From a virus, in IMG/VR virus record IMGVR_UViG_3300048928_000325, positions 1-37,820 of that record: a stretch of DNA of 37,820 nt. One strand, 5' to 3'. Both the position numbers and the translations under genes were made by a program. Positions 661 through 37,387 of this stretch are shown here, piece after piece; position 1 is the first letter of the stretch, and each line of letters opens with the position of its first letter. Below the pieces are notes generated by a model. The model had not been told where the DNA came from, did no database searches, and saw only the letters and a list, made by a program, of their open reading frames with translations.

Positions 661-703
661 AAAAAAAGCCCTACACCCCCGAATTACATGGGGTATAGGG
701 CTT
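661..703 (-). terminator. Intrinsic terminator for leftward transcription at the prophage left end
   Basis: AAGCCCTA (666-673) pairs with TAGGGCTT (696-703) and CCCC (676-679) pairs with GGGG (690-693), with one mismatch and a 10-nt loop. A run of seven A residues at 661-667 becomes a U tract on the minus strand. It would stop transcripts of the small gene at 782-1054 before they reach the host prtR-mutS region. Confidence 0.75.
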
Positions 704-731: not shown

Positions 732-781
732 TGGCATTAAATGGCATTGGTTGGCGTACGGTTTGCCCCATTTTTGCCCCA
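732..781. promoter_or_regulatory. Left-arm integrase/excisionase binding repeats (candidate)
   Basis: Two kinds of direct repeat lie here. TGGCATT occurs at 732-738 and 742-748. GCCCCATTTTTGCCCCA at 765-781 is a double GCCCCA unit and recurs exactly at 37354-37370 near attR. Paired repeats on both sides of the core are what arm-type sites of lambda-like tyrosine integrases look like. The assignment is inferred from position and repetition. Confidence 0.5.
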
Positions 782-1054
782 TCAAGATTTCTTGCCCTGA
801 CCGGGCGCTCCTCCTTGCAACGGCCGATTGGAACCTTGGACCTTCTCTTTGAGCCTGGTGAATGGCGTCGATGAAGTCTTCCGCCTGGCCAGCACCTTAC
901 TGCCCCGGCTAGTTCTCTTCAGAGCCTGCATCGTCAAAGCCCTTCGTTCCTTAATGGCACACAATGCATCCTCGAAAGAGATTCCCTGCTCATCAACAAG
1001 AACCTGCGCTCTCTCCCTGAGCTTAGATTCCCGATACGCTGAATTTTTCCCCAT
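782..1054 (-). CDS. Small basic protein of unknown function
   Basis: A 90-residue protein beginning MGKNSAYRESKLRERAQVLV. The first half looks helical and charged; the C-terminal half is rich in Lys, Arg, Ser and Gly and ends PGQGKKS. No family is recognised. ATG 1054 is preferred to GTG 1057 because AGGAGG lies 7 nt upstream of it. The gene diverges from the coiled-coil gene at 1161, and the LexA-type box between them could serve both. It ends within the arm-type repeats and is followed by the terminator at 661-703. Its strong ribosome-binding site and conserved-looking frame favour a real gene. A role in integration, excision or host takeover is only a guess. Confidence 0.6.
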   Translation of the reverse strand: MGKNSAYRESKLRERAQVLVDEQGISFEDALCAIKERRALTMQALKRTSRGSKVLARRKTSSTPFTRLKEKVQGSNRPLQGGAPGQGKKS

Positions 1055-1124
1055 CACACGTCCTCCTGGTTAAATGTGAATGCAGTTCGTCGCATCACCA
1101 TCGCTGGCATTATCCCTTATCGAT

Positions 1125-1144
1125 TACTGTATATCCAAACAGTA
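1125..1144. promoter_or_regulatory. LexA (SOS) box
   Basis: TACTGTATATCCAAACAGTA matches the 20-bp E. coli LexA consensus at all but three central positions and keeps both CTG/CAG half-site ends. It ends 16 bp upstream of the GTG start at 1161 and lies in the divergent intergenic space with the gene at 782-1054. Host LexA would repress the promoter until DNA damage. Pseudomonas LexA uses the same CTG-N10-CAG pattern. Confidence 0.75.
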
Positions 1145-1160
1145 CAGATAAGGCGTTACC

Positions 1161-1490
1161 GTGGATCCCTACGAAATCGAAGACACCTCTGACTGGCTCG
1201 GTAGCCCGACTCAACTCGACACCGTTAAGCATTACGCGCACATGCTCGAGGAGGAAATCCAGGAGCTCAAGCTACAACTGCGTGCAGCTAAGGAAAACAT
1301 ATCAGGACTGGTGGAGATGCACGCCGAAATTTCACGGGGTCGTGACGAGGCTATGAGAAATCTTCGAGAGCAGTCCGGCACACTGGCAGTGCTGCGCTTG
1401 AAAGAGCGGGATCTTCAGACAGTATCCCGCGGCAAGGATCGACTCATCGAGGACTTGCGTCGCCAGCTGTGCGACAAAGGCTCAGCGTGA
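1161..1490 (+). CDS. SOS-controlled small coiled-coil protein, unknown function
   Basis: A 109-residue acidic protein starting at GTG (MDPYEIEDTSDW), with AAGG about 9 nt upstream. Residues about 25-105 have the charge pattern and heptad spacing of a long coiled coil (ENISGLVEMHAEISRGRDEA), with no membrane segment or catalytic motif. It is the only plus-strand gene at this end of the prophage, and its stop overlaps the end of the converging Rz gene by 9 nt. With a LexA box immediately upstream it should be expressed on DNA damage independently of CI. It resembles no family I can name and may act as an SOS-timed accessory (moron-type) product. Confidence 0.65.
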   Translation: MDPYEIEDTSDWLGSPTQLDTVKHYAHMLEEEIQELKLQLRAAKENISGLVEMHAEISRGRDEAMRNLREQSGTLAVLRLKERDLQTVSRGKDRLIEDLRRQLCDKGSA

Positions 1491-1997
1491 TACTTCCCGC
1501 ACGTATGCTTGGCACGCCGCCAGCGCAATCAGTCCTTGGTCACCGGTGTCGGTGATTCCGACAATTCGTTGAGCATGCGCCGGGTCAAGTCTGGCGCGCG
1601 CTCCTCCATGAACCACGCGGCGGGCGTCGGTACCGGCTGGCAATGAGCAGCCAGTGGCTGAATCCGTGGCGTCGAGAAGGACTGACAGCCGCAGATCAGA
1701 AGTGGCAAGGCGATCGCGCAGGCGAGCCTGGTTGGTTTGAGCATCGCTCAGTTCCTTATAGTGGGTTTGCTCGCTTGACGACAGACGATCCTCCAGAAGC
1801 AGACGCTTATCCTGCGCGGTGCGCACTTGAGCGGCGGCGGCGTTGCTGAGGGCAGTAAGGTCGTCCTTGTACAGAATCGCCTGCTCAGCCAGTTGCTCGC
1901 CATAGCGCCAATCCTGCACCTGCCACACACCACCGGCGGTAAGCGACAACAGCGCCAGCACTCCGACAAGGGCCAGCTTCAAAGCCGAAGGACTCAT
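1482..1997 (-). CDS. Rz: Rz-like inner-membrane spanin
   Basis: 171 residues. An N-terminal membrane anchor (MSPSALKLALVGVLALLSL) is followed by a periplasmic helical region (about residues 30-110) rich in Gln, Asp and Leu, and a C-terminal tail. This is the i-spanin plan: it pairs with the outer-membrane lipoprotein Rz1 to fuse the two membranes in the last step of lysis. ATG 1997 overlaps the TGA of the hydrolase gene, so the two are translationally coupled, and a complete Rz1 frame is nested inside. It is the last gene of the late operon. I see no terminator after it, only the converging gene at 1161-1490. Confidence 0.85.
   Translation of the reverse strand: MSPSALKLALVGVLALLSLTAGGVWQVQDWRYGEQLAEQAILYKDDLTALSNAAAAQVRTAQDKRLLLEDRLSSSEQTHYKELSDAQTNQARLRDRLATSDLRLSVLLDATDSATGCSLPAGTDARRVVHGGARARLDPAHAQRIVGITDTGDQGLIALAACQAYVREVSR
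1529..1744 (-). CDS. Rz1: Rz1-like outer-membrane spanin lipoprotein nested in Rz
   Basis: 71 residues encoded in another frame entirely within Rz. It has a short signal peptide ending LPLLICGC, with the predicted lipidated Cys at about residue 20. The mature part is small and contains Pro (STPRIQPLAAHCQPVPTPAA). A short lipoprotein embedded in Rz is the hallmark of lambda-type Rz/Rz1 pairs. The Cys at position -2 of the lipobox is unusual, but the rest fits. Confidence 0.8.
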   Translation of the reverse strand: MLKPTRLACAIALPLLICGCQSFSTPRIQPLAAHCQPVPTPAAWFMEERAPDLTRRMLNELSESPTPVTKD

Positions 1998-2419
1998 GGC
2001 ACATCCTTGTAAAAGAGATGATGACCGAGTGTCAGCGTCAGCTTGGCGCCCTTCACCCACGCCGGGGGCTTGGGCATGGTGGTCGCATAGTAGTGGGTCG
2101 CCCCGCCAGTGGGATCCGGCACCACCCCGGCCATCACCTCCATGGCCACCGCCAGCGCTCGCTTGTACTCGCCGGAGGGAATCGGCTTGGCCCCCGTGAG
2201 GTAGGGCGCGTTCGGATCGTCGCCGTTCCAGCAACTAAACTGCCAAGCCTTCTGGCAAACGCCGGCGTAGCCTTCGCCCCACCAGGATTTCGCCTTGCCA
2301 TCGAACACCCGATTACGGATGGTCCAGGCGCAGGCCTGCAGGCCTGCCAGACTCTCGCCGCGGGCCTCCCCCCACAAGGTGCGGGCGAACACATCGCGAT
2401 CTCTTTCTGTCACGGTCAT
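1994..2419 (-). CDS. Endolysin: cell-wall hydrolase of the SleB-like (Hydrolase_2) type
   Basis: 141 residues starting MTVTERDRDVFARTLWGEARGE. The phrase LARTLWGEARGE...G..A.AWTIRNRV and the later GATHYYATTMPKPPAW are typical of the SleB/CwlJ-like peptidoglycan hydrolase family found as endolysins in Pseudomonas phages. No signal peptide is seen, so export presumably needs the holin. The start at 2419 is chosen for GGAGAG 6 nt upstream. The long upstream extension would run through a terminator hairpin. Its stop overlaps the Rz start. The holins are about 21 kb away at the other end of the operon. Confidence 0.82.
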   Translation of the reverse strand: MTVTERDRDVFARTLWGEARGESLAGLQACAWTIRNRVFDGKAKSWWGEGYAGVCQKAWQFSCWNGDDPNAPYLTGAKPIPSGEYKRALAVAMEVMAGVVPDPTGGATHYYATTMPKPPAWVKGAKLTLTLGHHLFYKDVP

Positions 2420-2437
2420 CGGTTCTCTCCAGGCAAT

Positions 2438-2459
2438 AAAAAACCCGCACGCGGCGGGC
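2438..2459 (-). terminator. Intrinsic terminator inside the late operon, before the lysis genes
   Basis: CCCGC (2444-2448) and GCGGG (2454-2458) form a stem with a 5-nt loop. Six A residues at 2438-2443 give a U tract on the minus strand. It lies between the amidase-fold gene and the hydrolase, so lysis genes would need readthrough or antitermination. Confidence 0.7.
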
Positions 2460-2491
2460 ATTGGCGGATGACGCCCACTAGGGCGCTTGGG

Positions 2492-29154: not shown

Positions 29155-29904
29155 ATGACTAAAGCCTCCAAGAATCCGTCGGCCGTAGCAGCCTTGTTCA
29201 AGGCACGCCGCAAAAAACTAAAGCTCAGCCAGGTCGCACTCGCCGAAAAAGTGAGAGCACTCTTGGGTCCCGAAGAAACGTTCAGTCAGCAGACGTACGC
29301 AGCATTCGAGGCGGGCGACACCAAAAATACCCGCTTCTCTATCCAGATCGCTCAGGTGCTCGGCATCTCGATTGAAGAAGTGGCCGCCCTGAACGGCGAT
29401 CAAAAAAAATCAACCGTCCCTGAGGCGGTAATGCTCGGCCCAATTGAAGTGTGGGATGACGAGACCCCACTGGATGACGATGAAATCGAGGTTCCATTGC
29501 TCAAGGAAGTACAGCTTTCGGCAGGAAATGGCAGGGCTGTAACGCACGACCACGTAAGGTCTAAGCTGAGATTTGGAAAGATCACCCTACGCAGGCAAGG
29601 GGTCGAACCGGACAATGCCGTCTGCGTCACCGTCTCAGGCAACAGCATGGAACCAGTACTTCCAAACGGCAGCACCGTCGGCGTTGACCAGGGGAAAAAG
29701 GAATTTAAGGACGGGGACATTTACGCGCTTAGCCACAATGACGAGCTCCGCGTAAAAATGCTCTATCGCCTACCACTCGGCGGGATCAGGATGCGCAGCT
29801 TCAATAGAGACGAGTACCCCGACGAGGAATACACACTGGAAAGAATCCACTCGGAGTCGATAGTCATCATCGGCCGGGTGTTCTGGTACTCCGTTCTACG
29901 CTGA
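29155..29904 (+). CDS. CI-type repressor with S24/LexA autoprotease domain
   Basis: 249 residues. XRE HTH about 10-80 (LKLSQVALAEKVRALLG, QQTYAAFEAGDTKNTRFSIQ). Self-cleavage Ala-Gly at about 123-124 (VQLSAGNGR). S24 domain with nucleophile Ser164 in SGNSMEPVLP and Lys201 in RVKMLYRLP, 37 residues apart as in LexA. It should keep lysogeny until RecA-stimulated cleavage. ATG 29155 has no spaced ribosome-binding site (AGGG touches it), and the promoter predicts a leaderless mRNA as for lambda cI. Its linker (DDETPLDDDEIEVP) closely parallels the tailocin PrtR at the left edge. Confidence 0.93.
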   Translation: MTKASKNPSAVAALFKARRKKLKLSQVALAEKVRALLGPEETFSQQTYAAFEAGDTKNTRFSIQIAQVLGISIEEVAALNGDQKKSTVPEAVMLGPIEVWDDETPLDDDEIEVPLLKEVQLSAGNGRAVTHDHVRSKLRFGKITLRRQGVEPDNAVCVTVSGNSMEPVLPNGSTVGVDQGKKEFKDGDIYALSHNDELRVKMLYRLPLGGIRMRSFNRDEYPDEEYTLERIHSESIVIIGRVFWYSVLR

Positions 29905-35949: not shown

Positions 35950-36143
35950 GCCTTCCACGCTGGGTAATGATCAACCGCGCATCCGAACTCACCGGCTACA
36001 GCGAAGACGCCATCCGCCACAAAGTGAAGAACGGTACCTGGGCACAGGGCCGCATCTGGCGCAAAACGCCAGACGGCCGCATCGCAATCAACATGACGGA
36101 GTACGACAAGTGGGCCGAGAGCGCACCGCAGGAAGCGGCCTAG
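35946..36143 (+). CDS. Excisionase
   Basis: 65 residues. MSLPRWVMINRASELTGYSE followed by DAIRHKVKNGTW and [18 protein letters not shown] is the compact winged-helix excisionase type found before DUF3596-type integrases in Pseudomonas prophages. It would bind the attachment arms and favour excision. Overlaps the integrase 5' end by 34 nt. Confidence 0.85.
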   Translation: MSLPRWVMINRASELTGYSEDAIRHKVKNGTWAQGRIWRKTPDGRIAINMTEYDKWAESAPQEAA

Positions 36144-37387
36144 AAGCCGAGTTGGCCAAACACAAAGGGATCGAGTTACACGGCGGCAACATTCGCGTCG
36201 TGTTCATGTGGCGGCGAGTCCGCTGCCGCGAATCCCTCGGCCTTCCAGTTACCAAAGCCAACATCAAACATGCCGCCCTACTCAGGGCGGCAATCATTCA
36301 TGAGATCAAAACAGGGCACTTCGATTACACGCGCCACTTCCCCAACTCGAAGAACGCGACCAACTACAGCAACGTAAAGGACGAACGCCTGGCCGCGCTG
36401 ATGGCCCGCTACAAACCGCTGAAGGCCGTCGACATTACCCCGATGACCGAAGAGAAATACGGTTACGCGCTTGATATCTGCACCGAACTATTGGGGCCAG
36501 ACCGGTTGGCAGGCATCCTTTTGCCCGAAGATATCCAACTACTCAGAACGCAACTGATCGCCACTCGGGCGCCCTCGACCGCGAACCATTACTTGGCTAC
36601 GTTTGCTGGTTTCCTGGCCTGGTGCGAGAACAACAGCTACTGCCGCAAAGGCCTCTCCACCGCCTGCATACGATTCGCAATGATCGGACGCGAACCAGAT
36701 CCGCTGACAAAGGGCGAGTTTGAACAACTGCTCGCCAAAGGATGCCTCCACCCGCAGGACTCAGCCGCAATCACACTTGCGGTCTACACAGGCCTTCGCC
36801 CGGGAGAGATGTGCGCACTGGCTGTCGAAGACATCGACCTGGTCGCGGGACAGATCAACATCATCCGAGCAATCACAGCAGATGGCACATTCAAAGTCCC
36901 AAAGACTGGAAAGCCTCGGGCAGTACTTCTGATGCCGCCAGCTGTCGAGGCCTGCAAAATTCTGATGGGGTTGGTGGCCGACCACGCACCGCGTGAGATA
37001 GAGGTGTACATGAACCGCCACGAAAGTCGCATCGAAACAGTCACCCCGCTGCTGTCCCCTACGACGCAAGCCCGGAAGAAAATCATCAACCACTGGTTTA
37101 TCCCCACATCGTGGAACACTAAGTGGGCAGCCATCCAAAAGCGTTCAGGGATTCGCCCACGCCGGCCGTACCAGACTCGGCACACCTACGCCTGCTGGTG
37201 CCTGACTGCCCGTGGTAACCTTGCGTTCATTGCAAAGCAAATGGGCCACAAGGACTTCACCATGCTGGTCGAGGTGTACGCCAAGTGGATGGACGACGAG
37301 TCGCCGACCGAGCTTCTACACATCTGGTCAGGCATTCAAAAGCAAACCAAAAAGCCCCATTTTTGCCCCACACTTTTGAACGAATAA
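36110..37387 (+). CDS. Tyrosine integrase
   Basis: 425 residues from GTG 36110 (GGAG 8 nt upstream), giving [20 protein letters not shown], the DUF3596-like arm-binding start; TTG 36152 is an alternative. The catalytic domain has Arg230 in [12 protein letters not shown], the R-H-T motif with Arg357 ([10 protein letters not shown]), GHKDF, and nucleophile Tyr390 in VEVYAKWM. The last residues ([12 protein letters not shown]) are encoded by the arm-type repeat and by the copy of the mutS leader. The stop is 13 bp from the mutS ATG with no terminator between. Confidence 0.93.
37354..37370. repeat. Right-arm integrase binding repeat (candidate)
   Basis: GCCCCATTTTTGCCCCA is an exact 17-bp copy of 765-781. 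It lies within the integrase 3' end, 61 bp upstream of the attR core, and runs into the segment that mimics the mutS leader. Confidence 0.5.

Follow-up and report, generated by a model that had tools for sequence, protein, structure and literature searches.

The locus considered here raises the question of what a small gene at the edge of a prophage does, and why it stands behind a binding site for LexA, the SOS repressor of the host. LexA-controlled prophage genes are known from a few model phages, and mostly encode antirepressors. The window, by which we mean the whole stretch of DNA analysed, is an entire provirus record of 37,820 nt (IMG/VR record IMGVR_UViG_3300048928_000325). It spans from a partial HTH repressor gene (1-408) at one edge to the start of mutS (37401) at the other, and contains the following features.

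666-703, minus strand: strong hairpin with a run of T after it on that strand (-21.4 kcal/mol, z -4.4)
764-780, plus strand: candidate attL core GCCCCATTTTTGCCCCA, an exact 17-bp direct repeat with 37353-37369
782-1057, minus strand: divergent 91-aa ORF, doubtful as a gene, without homologue and with flat GC by codon position
1086-1093, plus strand: a further conserved promoter element, TTCGTCGC, with the consensus CTCGTCGCC, lying some 32-40 bp ahead of the LexA box
1125-1144, plus strand: LexA box TACTGTATATCCAAACAGTA, the single match in the window (0 in 100 shuffles), conserved in position at 60/60 and 77/77 homologous loci
1161-1490, plus strand: gene for a 109-aa protein with a short acidic N-terminal segment and then one long coiled-coil helix (ORF with GTG start, family alignments, AlphaFold2, selection on the N half)
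1161-1334, plus strand: conserved half of this gene by dN/dS, residues 1-58 (MDPYEIEDTSDWLGxPTxLE...LENEVQEL...IFGLVEM)
1482-1997, minus strand: Rz spanin gene (Pfam Phage_lysis, E 3.6e-5, just under the family cut-off), overlapping the stop codon of the LexA-box gene
1529-1744: Rz1-like ORF nested in the Rz gene
1994-2461, minus strand: endolysin (cell wall hydrolase), final part of the late operon (Pfam Hydrolase_2, E 1.5e-13; PHROG endolysin)
29155-29904, plus strand: prophage repressor with HTH and S24 peptidase domains (Pfam Peptidase_S24, E 2.1e-22; HTH_3)
36137-37387, plus strand: tyrosine integrase, start uncertain (Pfam Phage_integrase and Arm-DNA-bind_2)
37353-37369, plus strand: candidate attR core GCCCCATTTTTGCCCCA, the exact repeat of 764-780, within the 3′ end of the integrase gene

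The prophage edge and its LexA box

An initial annotation of this DNA had placed the gene beside an att arm and oriented it against the late operon. Both points agree with the layout above, in which the gene lies next to one copy of the 17-bp repeat and is convergent with Rz, a minus-strand gene ending at 1482. At the far end, mutS begins 14 bp past the integrase stop codon, so that the prophage adjoins the 5′ end of that gene. The opposite prophage end (555-656 region) has a second, diverged version of the mutS start at 602-658, which is either an att mimic or the leftover of an earlier insertion. By analogy with the SpyCI mutator switch, mutS in the lysogen may depend on transcription from the phage side. 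The start of the HTH repressor gene at 1-408 lies outside the candidate att core, and this gene is probably a prtR-like regulator of the mutS-cinA tailocin cluster, which is known in P. fluorescens (PMC2647930). The hairpin at 666-703 is likely to be a terminator separating the prophage edge from its flank.

The near-consensus LexA box that had been noted directly before the 109-aa gene was borne out as the only such box in the window, and differs from TACTGTATATAAAAACAGTA at two positions. When up to three mismatches to a 16-mer LexA consensus are allowed, the window has a single match and 100 shuffled versions have none; the looser pattern CTGT-N8-ACAG alone is not significant in the window (1 found, 0.54 expected). 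The box is separated by 16 bp from the GTG start, ahead of which there is an AAGG Shine-Dalgarno-like stretch. As in the p95 promoter of phage 186, the first part of the box may serve as the -10 element. Further upstream, the CTCGTCGCC element has a CGTC core shared without change by 23 aligned promoters; a permissive pattern finds similar elements in 73 of 77 further promoters, making the element nearly as conserved as the LexA box. Its conservation suggests additional regulation beyond LexA.

It had also been proposed that the box may control the divergent gene, which is not supported here. Searches of phage records and family loci returned no homologue of the ORF at 782-1057, its GC content by codon position lacks a coding-like pattern, and a promoter-like site overlapping the LexA box on the minus strand does not exceed chance (1 site against 0.8 expected). 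As the hairpin at 666-703 may end minus-strand transcripts, transcription over this ORF is conceivable, but its control by LexA is unsupported.

A Pseudomonas phage gene family and its promoters

Relatives of the 109-aa protein were found by tblastn and pattern searches in Pseudomonas phages and prophages. A 19-member profile matches 126 of 399 genomes of the genus at E 1e-5 or better (best 5e-44). A 49-member profile matched at least 395 stretches of IMG/VR viral contigs and none of the 368 other Gammaproteobacteria genomes sampled, and a search of plasmids gave no match. None of the libraries Pfam, NCBIfam, PHROGs and PADLOC contains a specific match to the protein. Weak library matches to YabA, SMC and ATP synthase b were attributed to coiled-coil composition; a match to PHROG 9651 (6e-4 over the coil) was likewise put down to composition, and the single weak PDB profile match, to CP12 (E 0.002, over the coil), was set aside. 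The GenBank labels 'DarA' and 'minor tail protein' on homologues (OP626800.1, OP795451.1, MF975720.1) are unsupported here and appear to be spurious transfers. Literature searches on the gene, and on phage SRAP genes led by a LexA box, yielded no description of it. Judged by sequence, these proteins are a family of Pseudomonas phages, restricted to Pseudomonas in the genomes sampled.

The LexA box is retained across the family loci although the flanking DNA changes. It precedes the family gene in all 60 loci of a first set that have upstream sequence and in all 77 of a second, two sets that are not fully independent, their members being related and a few loci recurring. Equally good boxes elsewhere in the loci of the first set number 10 in about 905 kb. 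The distance from box to start is mostly 10-20 bp.

Host genomes tie this box to the SOS regulon of the bacterium. The strict pattern TACTGTATATNNNNACAGTA occurs once or twice per genome in four host genomes, and one occurrence is always the family promoter. With three mismatches allowed, in two of the four genomes, the pattern recovers lexA, dinB, yebG, umuD-like and radical-SAM genes, all recognised from their translations. Since the same pattern finds lexA, dinB and yebG in Pseudomonas genomes, the box is of the type recognised by the host's own LexA. In these two genomes the box of the phage gene is the best or joint-best match, and the prophage box is nearer consensus than the much weaker box of lexA itself. 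Control of the family gene by host LexA, and not by phage CI, is thus strongly supported by phylogenetic footprinting; the initial annotation had favoured LexA over CI, and the 137/137 promoters and the recovery of lexA, dinB and yebG back it.

It had further proposed that the gene could act during mild SOS, which is not supported. In E. coli, near-consensus LexA boxes bind LexA tightly and open late. The box is among the most consensus-like in the genomes checked; by the E. coli rule, tight repression and late induction are predicted, and action in mild SOS is therefore unlikely. The window repressor is moreover of the S24, RecA-cleavable type, so that damage sufficient to free LexA-bound promoters should also tend to induce the prophage. 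Action of the gene without prophage induction is possible.

The position of the family gene, between attP and the convergent lysis genes, is constant before Rz and endolysin. Free phage records have the order integrase, family gene, optional cargo and convergent Rz-endolysin-tail genes, and in prophages an integrated flank or a tRNA lies upstream. The commonest neighbour is the Rz cluster (39 loci). The window has no cargo, and its gene runs into the end of Rz. Elsewhere the cargo varies between phages and includes acyltransferases and proteins of no named kind. In 17 loci, a count that leaves out a fragment and the c28 neighbours, an SRAP gene (PF02586; E 1e-45 for one member) follows the family gene in the same orientation, often 20-50 bp past its stop codon; the c28 neighbours (L016, L019, L023) had been candidates for SRAP-like proteins and failed Pfam. 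In L002, L017, L066, L068 and others, SRAP follows directly behind the LexA-box gene, and a LexA box thus leads SRAP. Three loci (L008, L009, L064) have a second LexA-type box about 240 bp upstream of the family gene. It stands before a divergently oriented gene for a DNA adenine methylase, suggesting that this phage enzyme is under LexA control. Frameshifted family members also exist (L025/L097), and the gene is therefore dispensable.

The 109-aa protein and its possible roles

Family alignments divide the protein into a conserved part, comprising the start MDPYEIEDTSDWLGxPTxLE and the coil up to about residue 58, and a variable remainder. Median dN/dS is 0.32 for the first half and 0.76 for the rest, which is clear as a sign of purifying selection on the N half and suggests relaxed constraint on the C half. 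An AlphaFold2 model built with 49 homologues has a flexible start and a single helix over residues 18-108 (mean pLDDT 90.6), and conserved hydrophobic residues at 33, 36, 40, 47 and 50 have heptad spacing. Helix and heptad agree with the coiled coil noted initially, and the heptad makes a dimeric coiled coil likely.

Our preferred reading, to which we give about an even chance, is that temperate phages of Pseudomonas carry here a conserved accessory gene, repressed by LexA, whose product engages a host or SOS partner and helps the phage at induction. Judging from the box, the gene in a resident prophage would stay off until DNA damage is substantial and RecA has inactivated LexA; its own promoter would then drive expression, whatever the state of the phage repressor. 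The product would be a small, probably dimeric coiled-coil protein, the conserved first half of which would bind a conserved partner. This partner would be a host protein or one associated with RecA and the SOS response, and not the phage's own repressor; through it, the protein would help the phage, when induced, to cope with a host cell that is damaged or with the DNA of that cell. We infer that a conserved host partner is the most likely target, as the most economical reading; the coil has no specific fold match pointing to a partner. In about a quarter of relatives the gene would lead a LexA-controlled unit with SRAP (YedK/HMCES), a protein that shields abasic sites in DNA. SRAP is absent from most loci, so the link to DNA repair is by association.

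More tentatively, and with somewhat less than even confidence, the proteins could be seen as a Pseudomonas-restricted phage SOS family that leads a LexA cassette, in many cases including SRAP. Their target would be a conserved host component of DNA repair or SOS, allowing a prophage to reshape the damage response of the host independently of its own repressor.

A more specific form of host interaction would be an SOS modulator of the DinI, PsiB or RecX sort, which would bind RecA or LexA and so adjust, in the phage's favour, how strong the SOS response is or how long it lasts. LexA control, the small acidic N-terminal segment and a partner that is necessarily common to many phages all fit such a role, and the dinI genes of Gifsy phages sit behind LexA boxes (PMC3121763). 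However, the protein matches no DinI-type family in Pfam or NCBIfam. Its AlphaFold2 model is all-helical, whereas the DinI fold is alpha/beta, and we consider this role rather unlikely.

The predicted tight repression could also suit a brake on growth or division, by which the protein would halt division or metabolism in badly damaged lysogens late in SOS and hold the cell for phage production. Tightly LexA-repressed genes of E. coli include sulA, tisB and the colicin genes, and the near-consensus box resembles theirs. Searches of Pfam, NCBIfam and PDB profiles nevertheless connected the protein, by sequence or by structure, with no known inhibitor, leaving this explanation unlikely.

Among small phage proteins encoded behind LexA boxes, the best known are antirepressors (PMC3121763), which bind the prophage repressor and trigger induction; examples are Tum (phage 186), GftA/GfoA (Gifsy) and AntC (N15). 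A Pseudomonas precedent might be seen in PP_3901 of P. putida, likewise LexA-controlled and, according to a passage of PMC4595014 citing Abella 2007, needed for damage induction of prophage genes; PP_3901 is nevertheless a DUF1654 protein unrelated to the family. Several lines of evidence argue against an antirepressor here. Self-cleaving S24 repressors are present in the window and in 8/8 searched family-bearing records of at least 37 kb, whereas phages with known antirepressors have repressors not reliant on RecA cleavage. Across 18 phages, identity of the family protein and identity of the repressor are uncorrelated (Spearman rho -0.01), with chromosomal repressors paired by position within about 55 kb, some of which may belong to a neighbouring element; by the same method, the family protein and the linked Rz, endolysin and SRAP give rho 0.23-0.37. 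In two single viral records, G407 and G404, the family proteins are 97% identical and the repressors 20% identical. Comparison with Tum, the one antirepressor compared, gave an hhalign probability of 0.3%, and the gene lies at the lysis end, away from the immunity genes. The protein might still be an antirepressor if it acted on a surface that all S24 repressors share, but these patterns disfavour a role as trigger of prophage induction, and we regard an antirepressor as improbable.

Finally, it is very unlikely that the protein is of little importance and its promoter serves mainly to drive the cargo that follows, which varies, or a transcript running antisense into the lysis genes: cargo does differ between phages (SRAP, acyltransferases, others) and transcripts converge with Rz, but the first half of the protein is clearly under purifying selection and the gene is kept without following cargo, as in the window.

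The family is thus found in about a third of sampled Pseudomonas genomes, has one of the best LexA boxes in the genomes checked for such boxes, and evolves unlike an antirepressor. Should the preferred reading of a host or SOS partner hold, and the protein act on the SOS or repair machinery of the host, then the prophages of many Pseudomonas strains would account for part of the DNA-damage responses measured in them.

Comparison with known LexA-controlled prophage genes

Among the closest parallels is the p95 SOS operon (tum-orf97) of coliphage 186, in which a LexA box likewise lies over the promoter of a small gene at the end of a temperate genome, outside CI control, and the promoter -10 is the first part of the box. 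Its product Tum has no sequence similarity to the window protein; it acts as an antirepressor, and RecA does not cleave the repressor of phage 186. The Gifsy LexA operon (a dinI homologue with the antirepressor GftA or GfoA) is also a LexA-controlled accessory prophage operon (PMC3121763), but it lies beside replication genes, its antirepressors target repressors that are not inactivated by cleavage, and its proteins are of other types. SRAP genes, as frequent operon partners of the family, are neighbours and not homologues, and are absent from the window.

Within Pseudomonas, PP_3901 from a P. putida KT2440 prophage, the sequence of which was located via a published primer, is likewise a short LexA-controlled prophage gene with a near-consensus box, TACTGTCTATGCATACAGTA, just before its start. 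It differs in matching PF07867 (DUF1654) at E 1.7e-32, a match that the window protein lacks, and this identity rules it out as a homologue; a search of the KT2440 prophage record for the family found no member. As the two are not homologous, there are two separate LexA-controlled prophage families in one genus.
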